DNA of 43,605 nt from an uncultured Ruminococcus sp. (GTDB lineage: Bacteria > Bacillota > Clostridia > Oscillospirales > Acutalibacteraceae). Location of the stretch: positions 1 to 43,605 of the forward strand of contig CACWOX010000018.1 of NCBI GenBank assembly GCA_902762615.1, written 5' to 3'. The notes beneath the pieces are model-generated. The model searched no databases and was not told the origin of the DNA. It saw nothing but the letters and a program-made list of their open reading frames with translations. The position numbers were made by a program, and so were the translations under genes. This document shows, piece by piece, positions 12,703-38,045 of this stretch (position 1 is the stretch's first letter; each line of letters begins with the position of its first letter).

Positions 12703-13593
12703 TCAGTCTACCACGCCGCCTTCAACGACTAGGCTGTCGGGATTGGCTGCCGAGCCGTAAACCGAGGCGAGAGTTGCGTCATAGTCGGCATGGAAGAAGT
12801 TTTCTTCTCCCAGCGCCTTGATTTCGTCGTTGAGCCAGTTCAGCAGGGAAGAGTTGCCCTTCTGCACGGCGGGAGCGATGGTGTCTGCGCTGCCGAGCGC
12901 GTCAATGCCGACGGTGTAGCCTGGATTCAGGATAGCCCATGCAAGCACTTCGGTGTTGTCGGTGGAGAAGGCGTCGCCGCGTCCCTGCAGCAGCGCATTG
13001 TAAGCGTCGGCATACTCGTCGTACTTCTGGAGCTTTACGTCAGGCTCGTTCTTTTCAAAATAGGTTTCGGCGGTGGTACCCTTGACTACAATCAGGGTCT
13101 TGTCTTTGAGGTCGTCAATGCTCTTGACAACCGCACTGTCGGGAGAAACCACACCCAGCTTTACCTTCATGTAGGGAAGTGCAAAGTCGACCTTCTCGGC
13201 GCGTTCTTCGGTGACGGTGAAGTTGGCAAGAACAATATCAACCTTGCCTGTTGCGGCGTATTCCACACGGCTTGCGGGATCGGTGGAGACATATTCGACG
13301 TCAACGCCGAGATCCTTGGCTATGCGCTCGGCAAAATAGACGTCGTAGCCCTGATATTTGCCGTTTTCGTCGACATAGCCGAAGGGCGCCTTATCGCTGA
13401 ATACGCCTATTACCACCTTGCCGCTCTGCTTGATTTCATCTACCGTGCGGTATGTGGCGTTTGATTTCTCGCCGGAATCGTCAGCGTCTGAACTGACCGT
13501 TTCTGAACCGGAGCAGGCTGTGAAGGCGCCTACTGTCAGAACGGCGGAAAGTGAAAGTGCTGCTATTTTCTTGAATATATTACTGTATTTCAT
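12703..13593 (-). CDS. Amino-acid ABC transporter substrate-binding lipoprotein, cysteine-type
   Basis: This 296-residue lipoprotein has a signal peptide ending in a lipobox with Cys27 (GAFTAC), a Ser/Asp linker and a type II periplasmic-binding fold. The stretch ANFTVTEERAEKVDFALPYM, the following KLGVVSP and the VIAPAV-like ADTIAPAVQKG resemble, from memory, cysteine-binding receptors of the CjaA type. Cysteine or cystine is therefore the likely ligand, which its place beside MetNIQ and NifSU supports. AGAAAGG precedes the ATG. It is the last gene of the seven-gene uptake run, unlike most operons where the receptor comes first. Confidence 0.85.
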   Translation of the reverse strand: MKYSNIFKKIAALSLSAVLTVGAFTACSGSETVSSDADDSGEKSNATYRTVDEIKQSGKVVIGVFSDKAPFGYVDENGKYQGYDVYFAERIAKDLGVDVEYVSTDPASRVEYAATGKVDIVLANFTVTEERAEKVDFALPYMKVKLGVVSPDSAVVKSIDDLKDKTLIVVKGTTAETYFEKNEPDVKLQKYDEYADAYNALLQGRGDAFSTDNTEVLAWAILNPGYTVGIDALGSADTIAPAVQKGNSSLLNWLNDEIKALGEENFFHADYDATLASVYGSAANPDSLVVEGGVVD

Positions 13594-13599
13594 GGTTTA

Positions 13600-14373
13600 T
13601 TATCCTTTCTGTCTGTTATTGTTTTTTTTGAATTCAAATGTCTGCAAAAAATCCCTTGCACGCTGTGTAACAGGATTTTCAAAGAATTCCTCTGCGGGAA
13701 GGTTTTCCAGAACCTTGCCCTCGTCGAGAAAAATGATTCTGTCGGCAACCGCACGGGCGAATTGCATTTCGTGGGTGACAATCAGCATTGTCATGCCGCC
13801 CTGCGCAAGCTCCAGCATGACGTCCAGCACCTCGCGCACCATTTCGGGGTCAAGTGCGGCTGTCACCTCGTCAAAGAGCATGATTTCGGGATTCATGCAC
13901 AGCGCTCGAACGATGGCAACGCGCTGCTTCTGTCCGCCGGAAAGCTCACGGGGGTAAGCCTTGCGCTTTTCCCACAGTCCGACGCGCCTGAGAAGCTGCT
14001 CCGCCTGCGCTCTTGCATCCTCCTTGGTGCGCTTCTGCACCTTGACGGGCGCAAGCGTGATGTTGTCAAGAATGTTCCTGTGCGGGAATAAATCGTAGCT
14101 CTGGAATACCATGCCGATTTTCTGACGAAGACGGGTGAGGCTTTTGGAACCGGCTGCAACCTCTTCGCCGTCAATGCGTATGCTGCCGCCGTCGGATGCT
14201 TCCAGACCGTTGATGCAGCGAAGAAGGGTTGACTTTCCGCAGCCGGAAGAGCCGAGTATGACGACAACTTCGCCTTTGCTGACTGTCAGATTAACGCCGT
14301 CAAGTACCACGTCGTTGCCAAAGCACTTCTTTAAGCCCGATACTTCGAGCATACTGCTGTTTTGTTCTGCCAT
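13600..14373 (-). CDS. Polar amino-acid ABC transporter ATP-binding protein
   Basis: This 257-residue GlnQ/HisP-type ATPase has Walker A GSSGCGKST, signature LSGGQKQRVAI, Walker B IMLFDE and the switch His in VTHEM. The length is usual for the family. GGAGGTGA precedes the ATG. It is followed six bases later by its receptor and preceded by the two permease subunits, so the four genes form one importer for a polar amino acid, probably a sulfur amino acid. Confidence 0.92.
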   Translation of the reverse strand: MAEQNSSMLEVSGLKKCFGNDVVLDGVNLTVSKGEVVVILGSSGCGKSTLLRCINGLEASDGGSIRIDGEEVAAGSKSLTRLRQKIGMVFQSYDLFPHRNILDNITLAPVKVQKRTKEDARAQAEQLLRRVGLWEKRKAYPRELSGGQKQRVAIVRALCMNPEIMLFDEVTAALDPEMVREVLDVMLELAQGGMTMLIVTHEMQFARAVADRIIFLDEGKVLENLPAEEFFENPVTQRARDFLQTFEFKKNNNRQKG

Positions 14374-14380
14374 TCGGCTG

Positions 14381-15055
14381 TCACCTCCAACGCTTCTCTA
14401 AATATCTTGCCAGCACTGAAATCGGCCAGCACGCAAGAAAGTAAAGTATAAATACGGCTCCGTACACCCACAGCGACGCGGTGGGATATCGGAAACGGTT
14501 GACGTCGATAATCTGCTTGCCCACCTTCAGCACCTCGGTAATCCCAATGAGCACAACAAGACTTGTGGTCTTGATCATGCGTGTGGTGAGGTTGATGGTG
14601 GGAGGGAGCAATCTCCTTAGCGTCTGGGGTATAATGATATACGAAAAAGTCTGGAGCCTGCTCATTCCCAGCGCCTGCGCGCTGTCGTACTGGTGGCGCG
14701 GAATGCTGTTGAGCGCACCTCGCACCAGGTCGCCCATTTCTGCCGTACCCCATAGGGTAAAGACCAGCACCGCGCTGAATTCCGCGTCCCAGTTCCAGCC
14801 AAATGCCCTTGTGACACCGAAGTAGGCGATGAAGAGCAGCACCAGCTGCGGCATGATGCGTATGAATTCCAGATATACGCGGCTGACTGCTTTTGCAATG
14901 GGATTTTGCAGCGTCATAAACAGTCCGAAGAGTATTCCCAGCGGTATCGACATCAGTACTGCCAGAATGCTGATGCGCATTGTCACCCAAAGCCCTTCGA
15001 GCAGCCTTGCAAAATTGCTGCCCAGAAAGAGCACCTCAATTCCCGAAGCCTGCAT
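14381..15055 (-). CDS. Amino-acid ABC transporter permease, subunit 2
   Basis: This HisM/GlnP-type permease of 224 residues shows several membrane helices and the cytosolic coupling loop DSAQALGMSRLQTFSYIIIP with the EAA-type Gly. The ATG at 15055 was chosen because AAAGGAGG lies upstream; an earlier in-frame ATG at 15085 has no site. It overlaps the previous permease gene by 20 bases. The two half-sized permeases should form a heterodimer with the downstream ATPase. Confidence 0.88.
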   Translation of the reverse strand: MQASGIEVLFLGSNFARLLEGLWVTMRISILAVLMSIPLGILFGLFMTLQNPIAKAVSRVYLEFIRIMPQLVLLFIAYFGVTRAFGWNWDAEFSAVLVFTLWGTAEMGDLVRGALNSIPRHQYDSAQALGMSRLQTFSYIIIPQTLRRLLPPTINLTTRMIKTTSLVVLIGITEVLKVGKQIIDVNRFRYPTASLWVYGAVFILYFLACWPISVLARYLEKRWR

Positions 15056-15704
15056 GGCGCAGCCTCCTTTCGAGCAGTGTCGCAATAATGGAAACCGGCA
15101 GCAGAATGATCAGATAGGCTACCACCAGCATGGTAAGCGCTTCGTCGGTCTTGTAGTATAAGCCGATCAGGTCTTTGGCGACATACATCAGATCGGCAAG
15201 AGCGATGCCGCTCACGACCGACGTTTCCTTTATCAGAAAAATGACGTTCGCGCATATGCCCGGAACAGAAACCGCCATTGCCTGCGGGAAGATGATCTCC
15301 TTCATGGTGAGCCATTTGTTCAGACCGAGGCTCGCGGCGGATTCCTCCTGTATTTTGTCAACCGATTCCAGACCGCTGCGCAGCGTTTCGGTCATATAGC
15401 TGCCGCCGAGGAAGGCAATGCCGATAATCGCGCAGGCTTCTCCGCTCAGCACGATTCCGATGTTCGGCAAGCCGAAGTAGAGAAAGAAGAGCTGCACCAG
15501 CAGCGGCGTGTTGCGGCTGAGTTCGATGTATGCCGAGATAATTCTTCTCAGCACAGGCACTTTGTAATACAGTGCCGCCGAGCAGAGCACACCCACCGCG
15601 AATGCCAGCAGTATTCCCCAGAAGGCGATGAACACCGTCAGCTTTGCAGCCTCCGCGTAGAGCGGTGCGTATTTTGTTATGAAATTCCAGTCAAGATGAA
15701 TCAT
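15036..15704 (-). CDS. Amino-acid ABC transporter permease, subunit 1
   Basis: This 222-residue HisQ/GlnP-type permease has the family's typical SRNTPLLVQLFFLYFGLP stretch and the EAA loop EESAASLGLNKWLTMKEIIF. The ribosome binding site is weak (AAGGCGGTG at a long spacing). No terminator or clear promoter separates it from metI, which ends 46 bases upstream, so it is probably transcribed together with metQNI. Confidence 0.88.
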   Translation of the reverse strand: MIHLDWNFITKYAPLYAEAAKLTVFIAFWGILLAFAVGVLCSAALYYKVPVLRRIISAYIELSRNTPLLVQLFFLYFGLPNIGIVLSGEACAIIGIAFLGGSYMTETLRSGLESVDKIQEESAASLGLNKWLTMKEIIFPQAMAVSVPGICANVIFLIKETSVVSGIALADLMYVAKDLIGLYYKTDEALTMLVVAYLIILLPVSIIATLLERRLRHAGFGN

Positions 15705-15750
15705 TGTTCTTACTGCACCGCCTTTAAAAAAGTCAATATCTCATTAAAAA

Positions 15751-16461
15751 TTATTTAAGTCGTTTGTCGGAATGAACCGCCAGCTTTGTTCCTGCCGTCT
15801 GGAAGAATTGCACCAGAACGATGAGGAGAATGACAGCGGCGATCATAATTAAATCCTTGTAGCGATAATAGCCGTAATTAATGGCGATCTTGCCGAGTCC
15901 CCCGCCGCCGAGAATGCCGCTCATTGCGGAATATCCCAATATCGTGGTAATGGCAATCGCCGCGTTGGAGAGCAGCGAAGGCACGCTTTCGGGAATCATC
16001 ACCTTTGCGATGATCTGCAGGGGTGAAGCTCCCATGCTCTGCGCCATCTCGATGAGATTGGGATTGACCTCGCGCAGACTGCTCTCGGTCAGACGCGCGA
16101 CAAAGGGGAACGCCGCGATGACCAGCGGAACAATTGTCGCTTCGGTTCCCACCACTGTGCCGATAATGGCTCTTGTCAGCGGGAATACCATGATCATCAG
16201 AATGAGGAACGGCACCGAACGCAGCAGATTGATGATCACGTTGAGCGTGTGCATGAGCCATGCAGGCAGCGGCAGAATTCCGTTTTTTTCTCCTGTCACC
16301 AGCAGCACTCCCAGCGGCAGTCCGATGACGATGGCAAACAGCGTGGAGAGAATGGTGACATAGACCGTCTCCCATATTGCCATCGGAAACTGACTCTGGA
16401 TGATCAGCCATGCTTCCTCCACCTTGTCTGGCGCAAACAGTTCATTGAATGCTTCCGTCAA
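15751..16461 (-). CDS. metI: Methionine ABC transporter permease MetI
   Basis: This 236-residue permease contains FQMAIWETVYVT-like FPMAIWETVYVTILSTLFA, the stretch RSVPFLILMIMVFPLTRAI, and the coupling loop MAQSMGASPLQIIAKVMIPE. The ending SGILGGGGLGKIAINYGYYR is diagnostic of MetI. It transports methionine (often D-methionine and its derivatives) with MetN and MetQ. Its start overlaps metN by 20 bases. Confidence 0.92.
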   Translation of the reverse strand: MTEAFNELFAPDKVEEAWLIIQSQFPMAIWETVYVTILSTLFAIVIGLPLGVLLVTGEKNGILPLPAWLMHTLNVIINLLRSVPFLILMIMVFPLTRAIIGTVVGTEATIVPLVIAAFPFVARLTESSLREVNPNLIEMAQSMGASPLQIIAKVMIPESVPSLLSNAAIAITTILGYSAMSGILGGGGLGKIAINYGYYRYKDLIMIAAVILLIVLVQFFQTAGTKLAVHSDKRLK

Positions 16462-17461
16462 CGCCTGTCACCTCCTCAACGATTACCCCTTTTGTCTCTG
16501 ATAAATAGCCTATGGCAGCTGTGACCACGCTTTGGCTGTCAGGAAGCCCTAAAATCATTTGTCCGTAAGCCTTGCCGCCTATGCTCTTGGTGGAAGCGTA
16601 GACAATGCTTGCCGCGATTCCTCTCTCTGACGCCATCCGTGCGATGATTGGCTCATTGGCAGCCTGCGCGCCGTTGAATACGATTCGCAGCAGCCGTCCG
16701 CTGAAATCCGATACGTCGGGTGCGTCGGATTCGGGATAGACCAGCCGTTTGGCGGCTTCGGAATTCGGTCGTGAGAATACCTCGGTCACTTCGCCCTGTT
16801 CGGCAACTTCTCCGCCGTCAAGTATTGCGACATGGCGGCAAATCTTCTCCACCACGCTCATCTGATGCGTGATAACGATGACCGTGATGCCGGTCTTTTG
16901 ATTGATTTCCTTGATAAGCTCGAGAATGGAGTTGGTGGTGTTGGGGTCGAGAGCGCTTGTGGCTTCATCGCAGAGCAGCACCTTCGGATCGGTGGCAAGC
17001 GCGCGTGCAATGGCAACCCGCTGCTGCTGACCGCCCGAAAGCTGCGATGGATAGGCGTTGGCTTTGTCGCTCAGCCCCACTGTCTCCAATAATTCCAGCG
17101 CACGCTGCTGCGCCTGGGCACGGCTTACCCCCGCAAGCTCCAGCGGGAAGCATACGTTTTTCAGGCAGGTGCGCTGCATAAGCAGGTGGAAGCCCTGGAA
17201 TATCATCGTCACCTTGCGGCGAACCTCGCGCAGCTGCTTTTTGCTCAGACTGCCGAGATCAATGCCGTCAATGGTCACGCTGCCCTCATCGGGATGTTCC
17301 AGCAGATTGATGCACCTCACAAGGGTACTTTTGCCGGCGCCGCTCATTCCGATGATGCCGAAGATGTCTCCGTCGGCAATGTCGAGCGACACATTTTTGA
17401 GGGCTTCCACGCTGCCGTCAGCCGTATGGAAGGTCTTGGATAATTTTTCAATTTTTATCAT
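16442..17461 (-). CDS. metN: Methionine ABC transporter ATP-binding protein MetN
   Basis: This 339-residue protein has Walker A GMSGAGKST (from residue 38), signature LSGGQQQRVAI and Walker B VLLCDE. After the ATPase core comes a C-terminal NIL (ACT-like) domain of about 75 residues starting near GRLLRIVFNGAQ. In MetN the NIL domain binds methionine and shuts transport down (trans-inhibition), and its presence separates MetN from other ATPases. The gene lies between metQ and metI. Confidence 0.93.
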   Translation of the reverse strand: MIKIEKLSKTFHTADGSVEALKNVSLDIADGDIFGIIGMSGAGKSTLVRCINLLEHPDEGSVTIDGIDLGSLSKKQLREVRRKVTMIFQGFHLLMQRTCLKNVCFPLELAGVSRAQAQQRALELLETVGLSDKANAYPSQLSGGQQQRVAIARALATDPKVLLCDEATSALDPNTTNSILELIKEINQKTGITVIVITHQMSVVEKICRHVAILDGGEVAEQGEVTEVFSRPNSEAAKRLVYPESDAPDVSDFSGRLLRIVFNGAQAANEPIIARMASERGIAASIVYASTKSIGGKAYGQMILGLPDSQSVVTAAIGYLSETKGVIVEEVTGVDGSIQ

Positions 17462-17526
17462 AATTGTTCTCTCCTTCCGGTCGGTTACGGCTTTTTGCTG
17501 CTCTTTTTTATATCGTTTGTCCAGCC

Positions 17527-18417
17527 TTAGTTAAGTGCGTCAAGGGTAGTCTGCTTGCCGCCGTAAAGTCCGATGGGTTCCACATGAATGGAGGAAACGA
17601 CTACAAGATGGGTCTTATTTTCCTCATTGAAATTATTGAGATAGGGGGTGTGCTGGAAGTAATTCGCGTCGATTTCGCCGCTTTCAACGACGTTGTTGGG
17701 CTGCACGTAATCTGTAAATTCGATTACGTCAAGGGTGATCTCCTTCTCGGCGAGAATGTCCTTGACTACCGCGAGGATTTCGGCGTGAGGTACGGGCGTA
17801 GCGGCAACTGTAATTTTCTGACCCTTGAGGGAGTCGTAATCCACGGAATCGTCAAAGCCGTTGGTGGGATTCTCCACTGTGGGAACGACTTCATTCTGAT
17901 ATTTGCTATTGATGAAGTCTACCACCTTCTGACTTTCCAGAGCTGCGGCGAGAGCCTTGATTTTGTCGGTCTTTTCGTTGCCTTCCTTGACGACAAGCAC
18001 GTTGACGTAGGGTGACTGTGCGCCTTCCAAAGCGAGAGCATCCTTTGCGGGGCTGAGCTTGGCTTCCAGCGCGTAGTTGGTGTTGATGACCGCGTAGTCC
18101 ACATCGGGAAGTACGCTGGGAACCTGTGCCGCTTCGACCTCTTTGAACTCGATGTTCTTGGGATTTTCCTCGATATCAAGCACCGTTGCGGTAATGCCCG
18201 CGCTGTCTTTTACTTTGATGTAGCCGAGGCTTTCAAGCAGGAGCAGCGCTCTGCCGCCGTTGGTCGCGTCGTTCGGGATGGCTATTGTAATGGACGAAGC
18301 ATTGTCGTCTGCGCTGTCAGAGGAGCCGGAGGCGTTATCTCCGCAGGCTGTCAGGGAAAATACCGAGCCGAAGGCAAGTGCTGCTGTCAATGCGAGTGCA
18401 AGAATTTTCTTTTTCAT
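17527..18417 (-). CDS. metQ: Methionine-binding lipoprotein MetQ (NlpA family)
   Basis: This 296-residue lipoprotein starts MKKKILALALTAALAFGS and has the lipobox SLTACG. The NlpA/MetQ core is visible in VAATPVPHAEILAVVKDILA, the tail stretch DANYFQHTPYLNNF and the ending EPIGLYGGK. The ATG at 18417 follows AAAGGAG at an 11-base spacing; the longer frame from 18444 lacks a site and would spoil the signal peptide. It is first in the uptake operon and is served by the promoter at 18634-18662. Confidence 0.92.
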   Translation of the reverse strand: MKKKILALALTAALAFGSVFSLTACGDNASGSSDSADDNASSITIAIPNDATNGGRALLLLESLGYIKVKDSAGITATVLDIEENPKNIEFKEVEAAQVPSVLPDVDYAVINTNYALEAKLSPAKDALALEGAQSPYVNVLVVKEGNEKTDKIKALAAALESQKVVDFINSKYQNEVVPTVENPTNGFDDSVDYDSLKGQKITVAATPVPHAEILAVVKDILAEKEITLDVIEFTDYVQPNNVVESGEIDANYFQHTPYLNNFNEENKTHLVVVSSIHVEPIGLYGGKQTTLDALN

Positions 18418-18587
18418 AATGTTGTTATCTCCTTTGGTTTTCAATGTGTTGGGTGATTTAATATTGTTTTATAAGTGTAGATCAGCGACAACAACACATT
18501 CGTCCGAATCGGAAATTTGCTCTTAATAGCTTCTCAAAGGTTTGCTTCATAAGTATCAACGCCTTTCAACCTGAATTGTTTTTATCA

Positions 18588-18842: not shown

Positions 18843-20030
18843 ATGAAAATATACGCAGACAACGCAGCCACTACCAGAATGAGCCGCACGGCAATTGACG
18901 CAATGCTGCCATATTTAGATGAAATATACGGCAATCCTTCCAGTCTTTACTCTGACGGTCAGCGAGCTAAGGAGGTCATTGAGGCGGCAAGAAAGGATAT
19001 CGCTCAGGTGATCAACGCCGACCCGCGCGAAATCATCTTTACATCGGGCGGCAGCGAAGCCGATAATCAGGCGATTCTTTCGGCGGCAGCCATCGGACAG
19101 AAGACAGGCAAGCGCCACATCATTTCCTCGTCAATCGAACATCACGCAGTGCTTCACACGCTGAACAAGCTCGAAAAGCTGGGCTTTGAGATAACGCTTC
19201 TTCCTGTTCACGAGAACGGAATTGTCCGCACCGATGAGCTGAAAGCGGCGATCCGCGAGGACACCAGCCTTGTCACCATAATGTTCGCCAACAACGAGAT
19301 AGGCACCATTCAACCCATCAAGGAAATAGGCGAAATTTGCAGGGCGCACAAGGTGCTCTTTCACACCGATGCAGTGCAGGCTGTCGGACATATTCCGGTT
19401 GACGTGGCTGAGTACAATATCGACTTGCTCTCGGCTTCGGCGCACAAATTCCACGGCGCAAAGGGTGTTGGCTTCCTCTATGCCAAGAAGGGCATACGCC
19501 TTTCCAGCCTGATTGAAGGCGGCGCACAGGAACGCGGCAGACGTGCAGGCACCGAGAATGTCGCAGGAATTTCCGCAATGGCTGCGGCTTTGAAGGAGGC
19601 TGTCGCCAACATGGAGACCAGCGCCGCCAGACTGACCGCCATCCGCAGCAGGCTGATCGAGGGACTCTCCGAGATACCGCATTCCGCGCTCAACGGCGAC
19701 ATCGAAAACCGTCTGCCTTCCAATGTCAGCTTCTGCTTTGAAGGAATCGAGGGTGAAGCGCTGCTGCTTCTGCTCGACGACAAGGGAATTGCCGCTTCGT
19801 CCGGCTCTGCGTGCACGTCGGGTTCGCTTGACCCGAGCCATGTGCTGCTTGCCATCGGCAGAGTGCACGACGTGGCGCACGGTTCTCTGCGCCTGACGCC
19901 CGGCGAGGACACCACCGATGAAGAGGTGGAATACATCATTCAGGCTGTGAAGGATGTTGTGCAGTACCTGCGCAGCTTTTCGCCGGTGTGGAGAGATCTG
20001 AGCAGCGGTAAAATCAAGCATATTTTATAA
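18843..20030 (+). CDS. nifS: Cysteine desulfurase, NifS/IscS type
   Basis: This 395-residue PLP enzyme converts cysteine to alanine and carries the sulfur as a persulfide. The PLP lysine is Lys202 (SASAHKFHGAKG) and the catalytic cysteine is Cys324 in SSGSACTSGSLDPSH, the class I (NifS/IscS) loop. The N-terminus YADNAATT is typical. GGAGGTCATT precedes the ATG. The gene is followed 18 bases later by nifU and stands divergent from metQNI under the shared operator. Sulfur probably goes to the NifU scaffold and to MnmA, whose gene converges from downstream. Confidence 0.95.
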   Translation: MKIYADNAATTRMSRTAIDAMLPYLDEIYGNPSSLYSDGQRAKEVIEAARKDIAQVINADPREIIFTSGGSEADNQAILSAAAIGQKTGKRHIISSSIEHHAVLHTLNKLEKLGFEITLLPVHENGIVRTDELKAAIREDTSLVTIMFANNEIGTIQPIKEIGEICRAHKVLFHTDAVQAVGHIPVDVAEYNIDLLSASAHKFHGAKGVGFLYAKKGIRLSSLIEGGAQERGRRAGTENVAGISAMAAALKEAVANMETSAARLTAIRSRLIEGLSEIPHSALNGDIENRLPSNVSFCFEGIEGEALLLLLDDKGIAASSGSACTSGSLDPSHVLLAIGRVHDVAHGSLRLTPGEDTTDEEVEYIIQAVKDVVQYLRSFSPVWRDLSSGKIKHIL

Positions 20031-20048: not shown

Positions 20049-20450
20049 ATGGCATTATACAGCGAAAAGGTTATGGATCACTTCCGCAATCCGAGAAATG
20101 TCGGTGTGATCGAGGACGCGGACGGCGTCGGTGAGGTCGGCAACGCAAAATGCGGCGACATTATGAAGATGTATCTTAAAATCGACGACGGCACCATTAC
20201 CGACGTGAAATTTGAAACATTCGGCTGCGGCAGCGCCATTGCTTCCAGCTCGATGGCAACCGAATTAATCAAGGGCAAACCCGTCACCGAGGCAATGACG
20301 CTCACCAACAAGGCGGTTGCCGAAGCGCTCGACGGTCTGCCGGATTACAAAATGCATTGCTCTGTGCTGGCAGAGGAAGCCATTCAGAACGCGCTGGAGG
20401 ATTATTACACCAAGAATCCCGATCAGCGTCCGCAGAAGAACGAGGAATAA
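20049..20450 (+). CDS. nifU: Iron-sulfur cluster scaffold protein NifU/IscU
   Basis: This 133-residue scaffold has the three cluster cysteines Cys35 (NAKCGD), Cys60 (FGCGSAIASSS) and Cys104 (MHCSVLAEEA), plus Asp37, which helps release the cluster. It has the single-domain IscU size and lacks the C-terminal domains of full NifU. AGGAGGAAAATAGT precedes the ATG. It is coupled to nifS and ends at the bidirectional terminator shared with mnmA. Confidence 0.95.
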   Translation: MALYSEKVMDHFRNPRNVGVIEDADGVGEVGNAKCGDIMKMYLKIDDGTITDVKFETFGCGSAIASSSMATELIKGKPVTEAMTLTNKAVAEALDGLPDYKMHCSVLAEEAIQNALEDYYTKNPDQRPQKNEE

Positions 20451-20472
20451 TTTTAAATAGATAAAAATTAAA

Positions 20473-20512
20473 AATTCGGGTACGAGTTGACAGAAAGGCT
20501 CGTGCCCGAATT
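20473..20512. terminator. Bidirectional terminator between nifU and mnmA
   Basis: AATTCGGGTACGAG (20473-20486) pairs with CTCGTGCCCGAATT (20499-20512), with one wobble. It has an A-tract on the left and a T-tract on the right, and serves both convergent operons. Confidence 0.9.
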
Positions 20513-20522
20513 TATTTTTGTT

Positions 20523-21596
20523 TTATTCTGCGTGCCGTATCTCTCCGCCGCCTGCCAAGCAGTCGGATTCATCGTAAAACACCGCCGACTGTCCCGGCGC
20601 AGGCGCTCTGACCGGCTCATCAAATGCAATGCGGACGCTTTCGCCGCTTATTCGGGTGATTTCTCCCCATGTGCCGGCGTCGTGGTAGCGAATACGGACG
20701 TTTGCCCGAACCGAGCACCCGACCGGAAGATCGGGTATGCCCATAAAATTCAGCTCTCCGCACACAATTGCGTTGTGATAGAGCGACAACTCGTCGCCCA
20801 GCACCACTTCGCTCGATTTCACACGGATCTCATTGACGTAGGCAGGCTGCCCTAACGCAACGCCAAGCCCCTTGCGCTGACCGACGGTGTAATGAATGAT
20901 GCCCTTGTGATGACCGAGAATGTTGCCCTCTTTGTCCACAAAATTTCCCGCCCGCGGAGTATCAGTCCCCGCGGCAGACCGCACAAAATCCGCGTAGCTG
21001 CCGTCAGGAACAAAGCATATTTCCTGAGAATCCGGCTTATCCGCGACCGGAATGCCTTCTTTTTCCGCTATGCTCCGTACCTCCTGCTTGCTCATGCTGC
21101 CAAGCGGCATGAGCGTGCGCGAAAGCTGCTCCTGTGTGAGCCGCCACAGCATGTAGGTCTGATCCTTTTGTGCGTAAGCGGCTTTTTGCAGGGTATATCT
21201 GCCGTTGTCCAGCTTTGCGACCGAAGCGTAATGTCCTGTTGCCACATAATCCGCACGCAGGATATTGGCATAATACAGCAGCCGTTCCCATTTGACAAAG
21301 CGGTTGCAGTTGACACAGGGATTGGGTGTGCGTCCGTTAATATAAGCATCGGTGAACGGCTCGACCACCAGACGCTTAAAATCCGACAGACAGTTGAAGG
21401 CATGGTATTCTATTCCCAGCTGCCGAGCCGTTTCGCGCGCGTCGTCAATCTCGCAGCAGCGGCTTTCGGTGCCGTCGTCGCTTTCCCATGTGCGAAGCGT
21501 TACCCCGATGACCTCGTACCCTGTCTGCTTCAGCAGGAACGCCGCCACGGCGCTGTCCACGCCGCCAGACATGCCCACGATTGCCCTTTTTGCCAT
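20523..21596 (-). CDS. mnmA: tRNA-specific 2-thiouridylase MnmA
   Basis: This 357-residue enzyme makes 2-thiouridine at the wobble position of Lys, Glu and Gln tRNAs using ATP and persulfide sulfur. It shows the PP-loop GMSGGVDSA (8-16), the catalytic Cys97 (NPCVNCN) and Cys194 (SQEICFVPDG), and the C-terminal barrel with GQRKGLGVA. It is the last gene of the gamma-glutamyl operon, 29 bases after gshA, and faces nifS, a possible sulfur donor. Placing a tRNA thiolase in a thiol-synthesis operon is uncommon. Confidence 0.95.
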   Translation of the reverse strand: MAKRAIVGMSGGVDSAVAAFLLKQTGYEVIGVTLRTWESDDGTESRCCEIDDARETARQLGIEYHAFNCLSDFKRLVVEPFTDAYINGRTPNPCVNCNRFVKWERLLYYANILRADYVATGHYASVAKLDNGRYTLQKAAYAQKDQTYMLWRLTQEQLSRTLMPLGSMSKQEVRSIAEKEGIPVADKPDSQEICFVPDGSYADFVRSAAGTDTPRAGNFVDKEGNILGHHKGIIHYTVGQRKGLGVALGQPAYVNEIRVKSSEVVLGDELSLYHNAIVCGELNFMGIPDLPVGCSVRANVRIRYHDAGTWGEITRISGESVRIAFDEPVRAPAPGQSAVFYDESDCLAGGGEIRHAE

Positions 21597-21625
21597 GCGC
21601 TCACGCTCCTTTTGTATCTGACGGC

Positions 21626-22894
21626 TCAGTTGACAACCGCATACTGTGCGGCAAGCTCCAGCCCTTTGGCTGTGTAATCTCCGCCGAAGGTTTCCCTTAT
21701 CTTTACGGCGTAACGGTTCTGCGGGCTGCGCAGCTTGTTCTCCTGATAATCCAGCAGGACAGAGACCTCCTCCGGCGCGTCGAGCGAGAGGAAGAATGTG
21801 CGCATTTTTCTCAGAATATCCGAAGCCGCGTCGCGGATCGGCTGACTGCTTCCGCCAAAATCAATGAATACGCTCTCATCGTCATACAATGCGGCGTTCT
21901 TGAAATTGCTCACCGCTGCTGTTTGGGCGGTTTCATCAAAATCACTCTTTTCAAGCGACATGAGATACAGAATCAGCAGCTGAATAAATGCAATGTCCTC
22001 ATCAAAGATGCCCACAGGCGTCAGCGGATTGACGTCCAGCATGCGCAATTCGATGTGATTAACTCCGCTGCTGCGCAGATGATCGAGGCGGTTTTCTCCT
22101 TTTGGCTTGAGCCGGATAGGATAATACAGCTCCGAGGGGGACACGATTTTGCCATCTCTGATGAATTGCCATATGCTGTCGGTGTAATCGTTCAGGTTGT
22201 CGTATCGCAGCACCGGAACAAAATCATTCCAATATCCGCGTTCACCGCAGCGTGGGGAAGAGTACCTGCCGCCGTCGCTTCCGTCGTTAAAGAGCGAAGG
22301 GTCGCTCACGGAGCTTGCGGCGGTGAGATATACGATCAGCCAGCCGTATTCCGCCAGCATTCGTGCAAGCGTCAGATATACGCCGTTCTTGTACGTGCGG
22401 AAATCCTCTGTGCGGCTCTGCTCAAAGCCTGCCTTCAGAAGCGAGTCGTGAAAGGAAAAATTGCAGTGTATTCCGCAGAACAGCATTTTTCTTTTGCCGT
22501 ATTTGTGAGCTAAATACTGTCGGTAACTGGTCTTGGCGCTCTGAACTCCGCTGAACTGCGCGACGGGAATTTCGGTCTCACCGCTGATACGGGGAGGATT
22601 GGAGAAGGGCCAGAGATATTCCCTTCCGTCCGGCAGAGAGAGAAGCGTCGAGGCAACCTGCCGATGCAGCATGCCGAGCGACTGAGTCACACTTGCGGCG
22701 CTGTCTGTGGGCGGTGTGATGATCTCCACCTGATTTTCGCAGAAATCCCGCGATATATGTTCGTCGTCGCCAAAGGGGTGCGAAGTCTGTGCAAGCCTTC
22801 CTTCTGTGTTCACACGCAGCGTCTCACGCTCCAGACCGAAGCCTCCGCTGTACATATATTCCCTTATACGGGGACTGGTAAAGTTAAATGTCAT
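21626..22894 (-). CDS. gshA: Glutamate-cysteine ligase, GshA type
   Basis: This 422-residue enzyme has the class I signature FGLERETLRV near the N-terminus, followed by FCENQVEIITPP, the substrate-loop region CGIHCNFSFHDSLL and GVNHIELRMLDVNPLTP. It joins glutamate and cysteine through the gamma-carboxyl with ATP. It corresponds to the ligase half of bifunctional GshF and has no ATP-grasp half; no glutathione synthetase is in the window. gamma-Glutamylcysteine may therefore be the end product or be passed on. It lies 27 bases after a second, unrelated gamma-glutamyl ligase. Confidence 0.9.
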   Translation of the reverse strand: MTFNFTSPRIREYMYSGGFGLERETLRVNTEGRLAQTSHPFGDDEHISRDFCENQVEIITPPTDSAASVTQSLGMLHRQVASTLLSLPDGREYLWPFSNPPRISGETEIPVAQFSGVQSAKTSYRQYLAHKYGKRKMLFCGIHCNFSFHDSLLKAGFEQSRTEDFRTYKNGVYLTLARMLAEYGWLIVYLTAASSVSDPSLFNDGSDGGRYSSPRCGERGYWNDFVPVLRYDNLNDYTDSIWQFIRDGKIVSPSELYYPIRLKPKGENRLDHLRSSGVNHIELRMLDVNPLTPVGIFDEDIAFIQLLILYLMSLEKSDFDETAQTAAVSNFKNAALYDDESVFIDFGGSSQPIRDAASDILRKMRTFFLSLDAPEEVSVLLDYQENKLRSPQNRYAVKIRETFGGDYTAKGLELAAQYAVVN

Positions 22895-22921
22895 GGCATT
22901 GCAGCGCTCCTTTTTGTGTTC

Positions 22922-24322
22922 TCAAAGCTCGGCGTAATCTCTGATAAATGCCTCGCGGGAAATTCCGTGTTCCAATCCATCCGCCATTCGGCGTGCAGGG
23001 GAAATCAGCGTTTTCGCTCTTTCGTACAGCGGAGAGAGATAGCTCTCCTCTCCGAGATTTCTTCCGCGAAGCCCTTCGGCGGCGATATCCAGCACATCGG
23101 TGAGCAGGTCGGAAATCTCGCCCTTATTGAGGAAGGTGGGAAACTCGCGGCGGTTGAGCAGTTCACGAAGCTCCGATGGATTGTAGCCCTTGTGATAGAG
23201 GCATTTGTCCTCATTCAGCCTTTGCGTGAGATTGGGAAGCTGTTCCATCAGTCCGGTGTGGAAAGCCGCAACCGACATCAGATCTCTGACAGGCTGAGTA
23301 CATACGCTGCGGAATTCCACCGTCCCGCGATAGGTCAGATCTTCAAATTTGAAGGAGCGCAGGTATTGAAGATCCTCTATGTGCGGAGCGAATTGTATGT
23401 GACGGTAGCCGCCGTCGCTGAAATATTCACCTTCTATGCTGTCGGACGAAAAATAATCCTCGAGGTGTGTCGGACGGAAATTGATGTAATGCCCGTCGCG
23501 TTCCACGCAGTACAGGCTCATTGACTTGATGTAGGACAGCACATCGTCCGACGAAGTGAACGCCACCTGATACATATCGACATTGTGGCGGTTGAGTCCG
23601 TGCAGGCTGTTTTTCCAGAATTGATCGCGGCCGCAGAGCCATTCGCTGCGGTTCCCCCACAGTGAATTGGCAAAGAGAATGGATTTGAGCGGCTCCATGC
23701 GGTTAAATGTGTTGAAAACCTCCGGCAGCGATTTTTCCTCCACATCGAGCTGCACCTGAGCGGCACAGGAAAACAGCCCGAAGTCAGGATTGTGGTGGAA
23801 CGGAATCGCATTGCCGTACTGCTCATATGATTTCAGATGGTGCAGCAGCATTCTGTACCGTCCGCTGTGAATGGGCTCGCAGCGGTTCACGGCGTGATTT
23901 GGGTTGACGCCCATGCCTGTGAGCGTGTGCCCGAACTGACCGAATGCCTCCTGAAGATAGGTGTAATACCCGCGGAAGCGCCGGTCGATTACATTGATGT
24001 CGTATTCCGTGCCGAAGGAAAGCTCCAGTGTGTTGTAGCTGCAATCGTAGGATAGCGTGTCGTCATTCTGCGATGACTGCGCCGCATAGATAAATCCGTC
24101 CTCGTCACGGCTCAGACGGTTAAAGGAAAAACGCTTTACGAATTCATCTGTCACCTCGTGAACCGCGTCAAAATCCACAGCCTCGCCGCTGAGATTGACG
24201 ATAGGCAGTTCAAATTCCGTACCGACACATGGCTTTCGGGTACGCTGCGTGGGTATGATATATTTTTCATAAATCGCTTTGTCCAGAGCGATTTTGTCGA
24301 TTGTTTGCCTGCGAGTATTCAT
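22922..24322 (-). CDS. GCS2-family gamma-glutamyl ligase (EgtA-like)
   Basis: This 466-residue protein belongs to the carboxylate-amine ligase/GCS2 branch that includes plant-type glutamate-cysteine ligase and EgtA. Visible marks are GTEFELPIV (about residues 39-47), the stretch SYDCSYNTLELSFG, and TGMGVNPNHAVNRCEPIHSG, followed by GRYRMLLHH and a C-terminal VEFRSVCTQPVRDLM. It should activate a gamma-carboxylate with ATP and join it to an amine; glutamate is the likely acid, and the amine acceptor is unknown. A canonical GshA is encoded next door, so this enzyme probably does a different job. It starts 17 bases after the amidotransferase gene. Confidence 0.8.
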   Translation of the reverse strand: MNTRRQTIDKIALDKAIYEKYIIPTQRTRKPCVGTEFELPIVNLSGEAVDFDAVHEVTDEFVKRFSFNRLSRDEDGFIYAAQSSQNDDTLSYDCSYNTLELSFGTEYDINVIDRRFRGYYTYLQEAFGQFGHTLTGMGVNPNHAVNRCEPIHSGRYRMLLHHLKSYEQYGNAIPFHHNPDFGLFSCAAQVQLDVEEKSLPEVFNTFNRMEPLKSILFANSLWGNRSEWLCGRDQFWKNSLHGLNRHNVDMYQVAFTSSDDVLSYIKSMSLYCVERDGHYINFRPTHLEDYFSSDSIEGEYFSDGGYRHIQFAPHIEDLQYLRSFKFEDLTYRGTVEFRSVCTQPVRDLMSVAAFHTGLMEQLPNLTQRLNEDKCLYHKGYNPSELRELLNRREFPTFLNKGEISDLLTDVLDIAAEGLRGRNLGEESYLSPLYERAKTLISPARRMADGLEHGISREAFIRDYAEL

Positions 24323-24339
24323 GCAGATTCTCCCTCTCG

Positions 24340-25101
24340 CTATAAAGTATAATCCAGTGTAATACGTCCCATCACGTCGAGGTATTCGTTGTGGTGATTT
24401 TCACCCTGATAAATTGCCTTGCCCTGCTCGTACACCATAAGGGAATTGAGCGGCAGCGGTTCCCAGCCGGAGGGTTCCAGCGGAGTGGTCGAAAACATCG
24501 CGCTTTCTTTATCCTGTCTGACAAAAAGAGTGTCCCGCATGTTGACATGCACATACAGCCTGTCGCCGTCGTAGATCAGCAGATTGAGCTTGTTGCGGTA
24601 AGACAATTCCCTGACAGCTCCCTCCACAATGGCAATGCGTTCTGTGTCGGACAGTGGCGCATTGTTGTCGGCTATCTTGCGGTTGACGCTGTCTGTCAGA
24701 TAAAGCAGTATCCGCTCACTGTCGGTATCTCCGACCTGCCGGCTTATATAGGGAAGCAATTCGCTGCCGCTGAAAATCGTGCCGTTGTGCATCAGTGTCC
24801 ATGTGCGTCCGCTGTCGTCGTTTCGCACGAATGGGTGGCAATTCTCCGGCTTTACGCCGCCTATTGTCGCCCTGCGAATGTGAGCCATCAGCAGGCTGCT
24901 GTCCGGGAGGCTTTGGAGAATGCCCGGAAGAATTCTGCTTTTTTCCGCGGAGATCATCTCAGTGCGCACATTTGCCTTGCCGTTTTCAAATGTTGCCAGT
25001 CCCCACCCGTTGGGATGCCTGACGCTGTGGCGGAAAAATTCCCTCAGATAGGGCTGCAAGTGCGTTTTATTTTTAGATGAAAAACCGAATAATTCGCACA
25101 T
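24340..25101 (-). CDS. Class II glutamine amidotransferase (YafJ/EgtC-like)
   Basis: This 253-residue Ntn-hydrolase exposes the nucleophile Cys2 after Met removal (MCELFGF). It carries HPNGWGLATF, MAHIRRATIGG with a following NCHPF, and LMHNGTI, all parts of the glutaminase active site. There is no fused synthase domain. Relatives include YafJ and EgtC; EgtC removes a gamma-glutamyl group from an ergothioneine precursor. It is the first gene of the operon, so its product may trim a gamma-glutamyl amide made by the ligase encoded next. Confidence 0.85.
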   Translation of the reverse strand: MCELFGFSSKNKTHLQPYLREFFRHSVRHPNGWGLATFENGKANVRTEMISAEKSRILPGILQSLPDSSLLMAHIRRATIGGVKPENCHPFVRNDDSGRTWTLMHNGTIFSGSELLPYISRQVGDTDSERILLYLTDSVNRKIADNNAPLSDTERIAIVEGAVRELSYRNKLNLLIYDGDRLYVHVNMRDTLFVRQDKESAMFSTTPLEPSGWEPLPLNSLMVYEQGKAIYQGENHHNEYLDVMGRITLDYTL

Positions 25102-25169
25102 ATTTACTCATCGCTCCCTTCTTGCTCATTGTTTATAATAACATACTATTCAGATATGAAATATAGGGA

Positions 25170-25198
25170 ATTATAGCACGGCGTTTGAAATATGTCAA
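25170..25198 (-). promoter_or_regulatory. Promoter of the gamma-glutamyl/mnmA operon
   Basis: Perfect TTGACA (25193-25198) and TATAAT (25170-25175) lie 17 bases apart on the minus strand. The CCTATT-type operator seen at metQ and nifS is absent here. Confidence 0.9.
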
Positions 25199-25399: not shown

Positions 25400-25492
25400 T
25401 GGCGGAGAAGGAGGGATTTGAACCCTCGCGCCAGATTTTACCCAGCCTACTCCCTTAGCAGGGGAGCCTCGTCACCACTTGAGTACTTCTCC
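25400..25492 (-). tRNA. tRNA-Ser(GCU)
   Basis: The minus strand has the acceptor GGAGAAG/CTTCTCC with discriminator G and an encoded CCA. The anticodon stem CTCCC/GGGAG holds the loop CTGCTAA (anticodon GCT). The long variable arm is typical of serine tRNAs. Confidence 0.95.
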
Positions 25493-25543
25493 AAATGTGT
25501 TGACAAAAAATCAATATTAAATAAAGCAAAAAAAAGAAGGGTG

Positions 25544-25632
25544 TGGCGGAGGGGAAGGGATTCGAACCCTTGGTAGGTTACCCTATCACTAGTTTTCAAG
25601 ACTAGCTCCTTAAACCGCTCGGACACCCCTCC
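25544..25632 (-). tRNA. tRNA-Ser(UGA)
   Basis: The acceptor GGAGGGG pairs with CCCCTCC, with discriminator G and an encoded CCA. The anticodon stem CTAGT/ACTAG holds the loop CTTGAAA (anticodon TGA), and the variable arm is long. Confidence 0.95.
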
Positions 25633-25637
25633 ATAGT

Positions 25638-25724
25638 TGGTGCGGATAACAGGACTTGAACCTGCATGAACTTGCATTCACTAGAACCTGAATCTAGCGC
25701 GTCTGCCAATTCCGCCATATCCGC
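25638..25724 (-). tRNA. tRNA-Leu(CAG)
   Basis: The acceptor GCGGATA pairs with TATCCGC, with discriminator A and an encoded CCA. The anticodon stem CTAGA/TCTAG holds the loop TTCAGGT (anticodon CAG), and the variable arm is long. It is the first of three cotranscribed tRNAs. Confidence 0.95.
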
Positions 25725-36588: not shown

Positions 36589-36616
36589 TATTTTCAGATG
36601 ATACAATAAACAGAAT

Positions 36617-36797
36617 TTCTGATAGAGGTGCGGCATTCAAAAGAGTATCACCGGCCGAGGCAGCCATTGCCGTCGGCAGGTCGGTGGGAAAGGTTGTGCC
36701 GCCGAAGGGCTTGTCCGTATAATGGCAGGGCATGCGCCTGGGTGTGCGGTCAACAGTCGTACAACTGTCATCATGCGTGATGGAGTGCTACTCAGAT
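36617..36797 (+). promoter_or_regulatory. Lysine riboswitch (L box)
   Basis: The core words of the lysine aptamer appear in order: GATAGAGGTGCGG, TTCAAAAGAGTATC, GGAAAGGTTGTGCCGCCGAAG and CTGGGTG near the far side. The closing stem TCTGA (36618-36622) pairs with TCAGA (36792-36796). It lies between the promoter and a terminator in front of asd. When lysine binds, the terminator should form and stop transcription of asd-dapA-dapB. Confidence 0.92.
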
Positions 36798-36881
36798 AAT
36801 ATTACCGCCCGGTTGGCAGAACGATGCAAAGCAAAGCCGGCACAGTATTTTAGCAGCGGTTAATATTATAACGCATTGATG

Positions 36882-36905
36882 ACCGGTTATCAACCGGTTT
36901 TTTGT
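36882..36905 (+). terminator. Riboswitch-controlled terminator
   Basis: ACCGGTT pairs perfectly with AACCGGT around a 3-base loop, followed by T6GT7. It is placed between aptamer and asd as the expression platform. Confidence 0.85.
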
Positions 36906-36962
36906 TTTTTTGTTTTTATTTGTCAACAATACATCATTTATTCTTTTGGAGGTCTGTCAATT

Positions 36963-38045
36963 ATGAAACAGTATTACAACGTAGGTATTATCGGAGCCAC
37001 AGGTATGGTCGGTCAGAGATTTGCAACGCTGCTTTCAAATCATCCGTGGTTCAAGGTGACGGCTCTTGCCGCAAGCGCACGCTCCGCAGGCAAAACATAC
37101 AAAGATGCAGTCGGCTCCCGCTGGAAACTGGCAACTCCCATGCCGTCCGAAATGGAAGACATGATGATTCTCGACGCAGACGCAGACATCGAAAAGATCA
37201 CCTCCATGGTGGATTTCGTCTTCTGTGCCGTTGACATGAAGAAGGACGAAATCAGGGCTTTGGAAGAAAAATACGCCAAGCACGAATGCCCCGTTATGTC
37301 AAACAACAGCGCCAACCGCTTCACCGAGGACGTTCCCATGATCATTCCCGAGATCAACGCCGATCACTCCCGGATCATAGAAGCGCAGCGCAAGCGCCTC
37401 GGCACCAAGCGCGGCTTCATCTCCGTCAAATCCAACTGCTCTATCCAGAGCTACGTTCCCGCCCTCACGCCCCTGCTCGAGTACGGCGTGGAGGACGTTC
37501 TCGCCTGCACCTATCAGGCGATCTCCGGCGCGGGCAAGAATTTTGAGACATGGCCCGAAATGGTTGACAACCTCATTCCCTTTATCGGCGGCGAGGAAGA
37601 GAAATCCGAGAAGGAGCCTCTCAAGGTATGGGGCAAGTACGAGGACGGCAAAATCACGCTGCGCGACGATATCCGCATCACCACACAGTGCCTGAGAGTG
37701 CCTGTGTCCGACGGTCACACCGCCGCCGTATTCGTGCGCTTCAAAAACAAGCCCACCATCGAGGAAATCAAGGCAAAATGGGCTGCCTTCTCCGGCGAAC
37801 CTCAGAAGCTGAATCTCCCCAGCGCTCCCAAGCAGTTCATTCACTACTTTGAGGAGGACAACAGACCGCAGGCGAAGCTCGACCGCAATCTGGAAGGCGG
37901 CATGGCTGTCAGCTGCGGCAGACTGCGTGAGGACACACAGTACGACTACAAATTCGTCTGCCTCTCCCACAATACTCTCCGCGGAGCTGCCGGCGGCGCT
38001 GTCCTCATGGCGGAACTCCTCTGCGCACAGGGATGGCTGGACTGA
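36963..38045 (+). CDS. asd: Aspartate-semialdehyde dehydrogenase, archaeal/fungal type
   Basis: This 360-residue enzyme reduces aspartyl phosphate with NADPH, the branch point to lysine, threonine and methionine. It has the nucleotide motif GATGMVGQRF (11-20), the active-site Cys159 in SNCSIQSY, and VSDGHTAAVFVRF. Length and motifs fit the non-USG-1 (TIGR00978) type rather than the usual bacterial type. TTGGAGGT precedes the ATG at 36963; the frame is open upstream through the terminator, which is not coding. It is first in the lysine operon. Confidence 0.94.
   Translation: MKQYYNVGIIGATGMVGQRFATLLSNHPWFKVTALAASARSAGKTYKDAVGSRWKLATPMPSEMEDMMILDADADIEKITSMVDFVFCAVDMKKDEIRALEEKYAKHECPVMSNNSANRFTEDVPMIIPEINADHSRIIEAQRKRLGTKRGFISVKSNCSIQSYVPALTPLLEYGVEDVLACTYQAISGAGKNFETWPEMVDNLIPFIGGEEEKSEKEPLKVWGKYEDGKITLRDDIRITTQCLRVPVSDGHTAAVFVRFKNKPTIEEIKAKWAAFSGEPQKLNLPSAPKQFIHYFEEDNRPQAKLDRNLEGGMAVSCGRLREDTQYDYKFVCLSHNTLRGAAGGAVLMAELLCAQGWLD

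Follow-up and report, generated by a model that had tools for sequence, protein, structure and literature searches.

Enzymes acting on gamma-glutamyl bonds are known from several described systems. In the yeast DUG pathway, Dug2p-Dug3p cleaves gamma-glutamyl bonds and recovers sulfur amino acids, and Dug3 carries a type 2 glutamine amidotransferase (GATase) domain, according to the available portions of two reports (PMC7617739, PMC9012958); the first of these gives glutathione and gamma-Glu-Met as compounds on which Dug2p/Dug3p act. We analysed a comparable set of genes in a 43,605-nt contig stretch, CACWOX010000018.1, from an uncultured Ruminococcus sp. (hereafter "the window"). On its minus strand, egtC, gcs2 and gshA, here called the trio, form an operon with mnmA and encode an EgtC-like amidohydrolase and two different gamma-glutamyl ligases. 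The trio resembles the DUG pathway in having a GATase predicted to cleave gamma-glutamyl bonds, a likeness drawn from the description of Dug3, and differs from it in the linkage of this GATase with two ligases. A second related pair is EgtA and EgtC of ergothioneine synthesis, in which EgtC removes gamma-glutamate from its natural substrate. The trio likewise combines a GCS2-superfamily ligase with a stand-alone N-terminal nucleophile (Ntn) hydrolase of the EgtC fold with Cys2; however, its EgtC-like protein reaches 49.7 bits against the EgtC equivalog model TIGR03442, below the cut-off of 218.65, the EgtA model finds no match to the GCS2 protein of the window, and EgtD is missing from the carrier genomes searched (see below).

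Our results suggest, with a probability of about one-half, that the trio forms a cycle of gamma-glutamyl synthesis and release on cysteine or a near relative, serving as a cysteine store. This is supported by the linkage and co-occurrence of the genes, two gene fusions, intact active sites and a sulfur-related context. If true, some Clostridia would possess a cysteine store that operates without glutathione; no low-molecular-weight thiol system has, to our knowledge, been named for most anaerobic Clostridia, and the trio is a concrete candidate for a glutathione-free cysteine store or for a pathway leading to a new thiol. It also supplies a candidate function for a GCS2 clade and a clade of stand-alone amidohydrolases that both score under every specific NCBIfam cut-off. 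Each protein comes from a known superfamily; what appears new is the conserved, rearranged and twice-fused trio, which was described in none of the Creative Commons (CC)-licensed PMC papers judged by title and abstract opening. A 2009 amidoligase survey by Iyer and colleagues may mention GCS2 and GAT-II neighbors.

Conservation, rearrangement and fusion of the trio

In GTDB species genomes, a scan turned up 441 stretches that code for relatives, and the best 80 of these were used; ten further loci of the GCS2 clade came from a search of genomes, giving 90 loci (numbered L; genomes are numbered G) in which gene presence and order were determined by tblastn. The three genes occurred together in 65 of the 80 GTDB loci and in 73 of all 90, so the trio is conserved beyond this genome, a point on which the original prediction had staked its reading. 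Where at least 3 kb was available on both sides, the trio was complete in 37/42 loci, the remaining five having egtC and gcs2 only. Among the ten genome-search loci, eight held the trio (in L008 with egtC and gshA on the opposite strand), one held the pair, and one held gcs2 alone (L011). The egtC-gcs2 pair stood without a local gshA in 11/80 loci, some of which lie close to the end of a contig.

The association has been maintained through repeated rearrangement. Same-strand orders among the 80 loci were gshA-egtC-gcs2 (41 loci), egtC-gcs2-gshA (14), gcs2-gshA-egtC (9) and egtC-gshA-gcs2 (1), and at least nine changes of order were counted on a 90-row GCS2 tree, a quick tree with several long branches on which the split arrangement of L008 was counted as a state. 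On two distant branches, the ligases are fused in one frame, as GshA-GCS2 in L064 (880 aa) and as GCS2-GshA in L158 (887 aa). The occurrence of fusions in opposite orders argues that the ligases cooperate rather than serve as spare copies. No fusion of the EgtC-like protein to a ligase was found among the loci.

Within the window's order, the genes are rare and coincide: of 295 genomes, 6 carry GCS2, 5 carry the GshA-type ligase (all within those 6), and 7 carry the EgtC-like protein at E < 1e-60, 5 of which have both ligases. With the window genome left out, Fisher tests of co-occurrence, which ignore kinship, gave p values of 1.6e-8 for GCS2/GshA, 2.4e-7 for GCS2/EgtC-like and 4.9e-8 for GshA/EgtC-like. 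Weak EgtC-like matches (13/20 genomes; E 3e-7 to 7e-6, 25.7-30.3 bits), probably GlmS/PurF-type proteins, were excluded. Pairwise distances over 59 trio loci correlated with r of 0.76-0.82, or 0.41-0.54 where the GCS2 distance exceeded 0.4; these values carry no taxonomic control and are not relied on here. We conclude that egtC, gcs2 and gshA are a real module, linked beyond chance. The expectation that it would be found in other Oscillospiraceae was too narrow, given the 6/295 within the window's order: judging by record titles, Lachnospiraceae, Ruminococcus, Eubacterium and unplaced Clostridia are among the named relatives.

Active sites of the three enzymes

The EgtC-like protein scores 114 bits against Pfam GATase_4 and has the hallmarks of a class II (Ntn) amidohydrolase, namely, the Cys2 nucleophile, gamma-glutamyl site residues and the fold. 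C2, R76, N106, G107 and D127 are invariant in 78/78 rows (active-site counts throughout are limited to rows that cover 85% or more of the length); the last four we take to be the glutamine-site residues of class II GATases such as GlmS. The predicted structure (predicted local distance difference test [pLDDT] score, 92) has 1te5 and EgtC (4zfj-4zfl) as its nearest solved structures, and its fold also matches the glutaminase domains of GlmS and PurF. The protein of Pseudomonas aeruginosa, 1te5, presumably a YafJ-like protein, is likewise a stand-alone class II GATase and is the closest solved structure by both sequence and fold, but it is listed only as a predicted amidotransferase.

The GCS2 protein belongs to the GCS2 superfamily, passing the Pfam cut-off (23.4 bits against 21) and having the fold of a glutamate-cysteine ligase (GCL). 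Its predicted structure (mean pLDDT, 89) matches the plant GCL 2gwc best, with a template-modeling (TM) score of 0.75-0.80, and resembles YbdK less. It shares motifs with the plant-type GCLs (TIGR01436, 2gwc, 6gmo) but is only 18% identical in the Foldseek alignment and scores 38.6 bits against TIGR01436, for which the cut-off is 463.15; by these scores, the clade is far from the characterized ligase families. Its nearest structural relatives attach the gamma-carboxyl of glutamate. E38, D93, E100, R232, E336 and R338 are retained in 83 or 84 of the 84 GCS2 rows. The Asp-Cys pair D93-C94, which is possibly redox or substrate related, is invariant in 84/84 rows, at a position where the aligned plant GCLs have Glu-Pro.

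The third protein is a GshA-type GCL by family score (211 bits, Pfam Glu_cys_ligase) and catalytic residues. It aligns with E. coli GshA (1v4g) and with the GshA half of 3ln6/3ln7; in contrast to GshAB/GshF, it lacks the ATP-grasp glutathione-synthetase half and scores 297.8 bits against the GshAB model (cut-off, 425). E22, E24, D50, E57, H143, R215, E282 and R284, which align with catalytic residues of E. coli GshA, were invariant in 70/70 GshA-type rows. Acidic and basic residues that line up with the metal- and substrate-binding positions of GCLs are retained in both ligases (84 GCS2 and 70 GshA-type rows). We also considered one ligase as a pseudo-enzyme, in the manner of a catalytic and a modifier subunit; this is unsupported because both keep their active-site residues, and neither ligase looks like a dead subunit, although the two may still form a complex.

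Functions missing from the carrier genomes

Related pathways were searched for in 11 of the 12 genomes in which the genome search had located the GCS2 clade (G553 was left out). Nine of the 11 carry all three genes at a single locus, in G626 gshA lies elsewhere, and G026 has gcs2 only. EgtD (Methyltransf_33) was found in none of the 11, the window genome included. EgtB exceeded its cut-off in 0/11, with one match of 18.6 bits in G026 and none in the window genome; this search was weak, since 14 control genomes also gave none above the cut-off. Ergothioneine synthesis is rejected on the missing EgtD in the 11 genomes and the EgtC and EgtA models that were not reached.

Glutathione synthesis in the window genome was likewise not supported: no GSH-S_ATP match was found there, and GshAB exceeded its cut-off in 0/11 genomes, its second half scoring at most 39.3 bits and only 18.4 bits in the window genome, a match taken for a generic ATP-grasp match. 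The absence of EgtB, EgtD and a glutathione synthetase that had been noted for the window thus extends to its genome, an incomplete assembly (95.9%). Another ATP-grasp ligase may serve as glutathione synthetase. One trio-bearing genome has two adjacent GSH-S_ATP-like ATP-grasp matches of 41-42 bits (G560:C7:19135-20156).

Gamma-glutamyltranspeptidase was found in 0/11 genomes. Because no transpeptidase occurs in the genomes checked, the EgtC-like enzyme would be the obvious candidate for undoing a gamma-glutamyl bond, with ChaC-type cyclotransferases outside this search. In 14 genomes whose locus lacks gshA, a homolog was present elsewhere in five and none was found in nine, completeness being known for one of the 14; the gshA homolog of G300 lies in an 813-aa frame, which is GshAB length.

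Sulfur-related neighbors

In the 90 loci, some of which are on short contigs, neighbors were counted up to a distance of 6 kb from gcs2, and lineages (44 in all) were defined at 70% GCS2 identity. A cysteine, methionine, iron-sulfur (Fe-S) or Rrf2 gene was found near gcs2 in 36/90 loci and 24/44 lineages; without Rrf2, the counts were 29/90 and 18/44, and Fe-S genes alone accounted for 9/90 loci in five lineages. In a sister GCS2 clade used as a control, no such neighbor occurred in 14 loci (Fisher p=0.002 against 36/90). The sister clade (L161-L174) comprises proteins mostly of about 400 aa from other Clostridia families, and its fetched stretches contain neither egtC nor gshA nor the counted sulfur genes.

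The genes concerned were nifS and/or iscU in five loci (L013, L014, L072, L074, L087), sufC, B, D and S in 4/90, CysK in nine loci of nine lineages, MetQ in 8/90, Rrf2 regulators in 15/90 and Cys/Met pyridoxal phosphate enzymes in 7/90. The two of the latter that were scanned are O-acetylhomoserine sulfhydrylase and cystathionine gamma-lyase-like, and for three scanned Rrf2 regulators the best specific models were IscR and CymR, both below cut-off. In L041 and L069, the SUF genes are directly downstream of the trio and share its strand; in L034 and L057, they are on the opposite strand. In L072, nifS-iscU lies upstream on the strand of the trio. In L124 and L125, from two genomes of the order without the window-type GCS2 or GshA, an EgtC-like gene adjoins a gene for another GCL-like protein (19% identity with the GCS2 protein of the window; 149 bits to TIGR01436; shorter in L124 than in L125), and this pair is flanked by methionine and amino-acid ATP-binding cassette (ABC) genes similar to those in the window (Table 1).

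mnmA, which encodes an equivalog-level MnmA in the window (392 bits; cut-off, 284), adjoins the trio in 12/80 GTDB loci, all from close relatives of the window, and in 0/10 genome-search loci; it is a lineage-specific local addition. The sulfur link that had been proposed from the presence of mnmA is supported by way of cysteine supply and Fe-S assembly but not by way of tRNA thiolation as such, toward which the recurrent neighbors do not point.

Three further genes near gcs2 were seen. A ThiF/TcdA-like gene, so named by eye (249-261 aa), recurs near the trio in L053, L055, L083 and L084. A PuuD-like gene of the gamma-glutamyl-gamma-aminobutyrate hydrolase type (L008:7381-8184; 101.8 bits; cut-off, 266) lies directly upstream of gcs2 and is a second candidate gamma-glutamyl hydrolase. 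A PepT-like M20 gene, which we take to be distantly comparable to Dug1/Dug2, was found near gcs2 in only 2/90 loci (L063, L011), a count from the neighborhoods alone.

A proposed cysteine store and its alternatives

A cycle in which a gamma-glutamyl group is put on and taken off is the most natural reading of a ligase paired with an amidohydrolase. From its family and conserved residues, the GshA-type enzyme would convert glutamate, cysteine and ATP to gamma-glutamylcysteine, and the GCS2 enzyme would be a second ATP-dependent gamma-glutamyl ligase, presumably acting on cysteine or a near relative. The EgtC-like Ntn hydrolase would split the gamma-glutamyl amide into glutamate and the free thiol, as Dug2/Dug3 and EgtC do. 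The net result would be a cysteine store or buffer needing neither ergothioneine nor gamma-glutamyltranspeptidase and, in most genomes checked, operating without a recognizable glutathione synthetase. As the neighboring genes suggest, released cysteine would pass to NifS/SufS to build Fe-S clusters and, within the lineage of the window, also to MnmA for tRNA thiolation. The gamma-glutamyl cycle of the original prediction is supported as regards the pairing of ligase and amidohydrolase, which recurs without a local gshA and, in L124 and L125, with a different GCL-like protein.

Several points weigh against a cysteine store. Such a store needs one ligase only, so that two ligases and their fusion are left unexplained, and the EgtC-like protein may be an ammonia-supplying glutaminase instead. 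GSH-S_ATP exceeded its cut-off in 3/11 genomes (partial matches of 26.5-41.7 bits), where a glutathione-type synthetase is possible. Of the 11 genomes in which the egtC-gcs2 pair has no gshA beside it, four have a gshA homolog elsewhere and seven show none; gshA therefore seems dispensable, and GCS2 and the hydrolase may stand without GshA. No counted sulfur neighbor was present in 54/90 loci, some from short contigs, and the control was small (14 of 19 sister-clade loci used). Neither a cysteine-responsive nor an S-adenosylmethionine RNA switch was found at the gathering threshold in the window or in the 23/90 loci scanned. Finally, no enzyme of the clade with a published assay was found in the CC-licensed literature searched.

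A possible but doubtful alternative is that the trio protects, couples and deprotects a thiol: GshA would make gamma-Glu-Cys, GCS2 would couple an amine to the free carboxyl of that product (or to a second glutamate), and the EgtC-like protein would remove the cap, yielding an undescribed cysteinyl compound or a glutathione-like thiol. The fusions in opposite orders, which suggest direct hand-over of a product, fit this scheme, as do the distance of the GCS2 clade from known ligases, the structure of EgtC solved with its natural substrate (4zfl), the missing EgtD and the lack of a recognized glutathione synthetase in the window genome. However, the pairs in seven genomes without any gshA found count against a GCS2 enzyme that needs GshA-made gamma-Glu-Cys, the nearest structural relatives of GCS2 use the gamma-carboxyl of glutamate instead, and no neighbor family found in at least four loci is recognizable as a dedicated amine supplier. 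Were this scheme correct, Clostridia of the rumen and gut would produce a cysteine-based thiol that has not been described before and that is connected with Fe-S and cysteine metabolism.

It is unlikely that the two ligases both make gamma-Glu-Cys, as isoenzymes or in one regulated complex, with the amidohydrolase as a housekeeping degrader. Both come from GCL families with complete active sites, and the fusions would fit a single complex, but two such different isoenzymes kept adjacent in most loci and repeatedly rearranged together would be unusual for redundancy. We regard as quite unlikely a route in which the EgtC-like protein is a glutaminase feeding ammonia to the GCS2 ligase to form a carboxamide; the retained R76, N106, G107 and D127 and the GlmS/PurF fold matches agree with it, whereas the lack of an EgtC-like/ligase fusion and the action of EgtC and Dug3, of the same fold, on gamma-glutamyl amides do not, and GshA and the cysteine context would be unaccounted for. 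That the trio serves MnmA is highly improbable, and MnmA is rejected as a general functional partner: although mnmA is the last gene of the window operon and NifS/IscU adjoin it, it accompanies the trio only in the closest relatives.

Operon layout and surroundings in the window

The features of the operon and its neighbors are collected in Table 1.

Table 1. Positions of the operon, its signals and neighboring genes in the window
Feature	Position	Strand	Remarks
EgtC-like (GATase_4) stand-alone class II (Cys2 Ntn) amidohydrolase	25101-24340	-	253 aa, begins Met-Cys; Pfam GATase_4
GCS2-family ligase, distinct clade	24322-22922	-	466 aa; Pfam GCS2
GshA-type glutamate-cysteine ligase without glutathione-synthetase half	22894-21626	-	422 aa; Pfam Glu_cys_ligase
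MnmA (tRNA 2-thiouridine synthase)	21596-20523	-	357 aa; equivalog model; final operon gene
Promoter TTGACA-17-TATAAT, TG before -10	25198-25170	-	12/12 matches
Probable terminator shared by convergent iscU and mnmA (17-pair stem-loop)	20472-20513		just past mnmA stop
NifS cysteine desulfurase	18843-20030	+	neighbor, convergent with operon, outside it
IscU/NifU scaffold	20049-20450	+	neighbor, convergent with operon, outside it
ABC genes for polar amino acids (possibly cystine); methionine transporter genes of MetI, MetN and MetQ type	12703-18444	-	neighbors

All four minus-strand open reading frames (ORFs) were recovered in the predicted order, with gaps of 17, 27 and 29 bases and a single perfect promoter ahead of them. 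Five promoter-like sites occurred in the 5 kb scanned, against 4.0 expected from shuffles, the listed one being the sole perfect site. The single terminator that had been proposed would correspond to the stem-loop after mnmA, but this was listed as a terminator on the plus strand only, on the side of iscU; inspection by eye shows a T-rich flank on the minus strand as well. The transporter genes match generic amino-acid and MetI/MetQ models, with the binding protein, MetI and MetQ below cut-offs, and MetN is named by eye and by its matches in relatives only.

Genes for tRNA Ser(gct), Ser(tga) and Leu(cag) lie at 25400-25724 on the minus strand, just upstream of the trio promoter. A lysine riboswitch (36615-36798, plus strand; 81.5 bits) precedes an ORF (36876-38045) that is aspartate-semialdehyde-dehydrogenase-like by eye. 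Between L013 and the window, NifS and IscU are 95% identical and the four operon proteins 69-82% identical; this difference suggests faster evolution of the operon than of the genes next to it.

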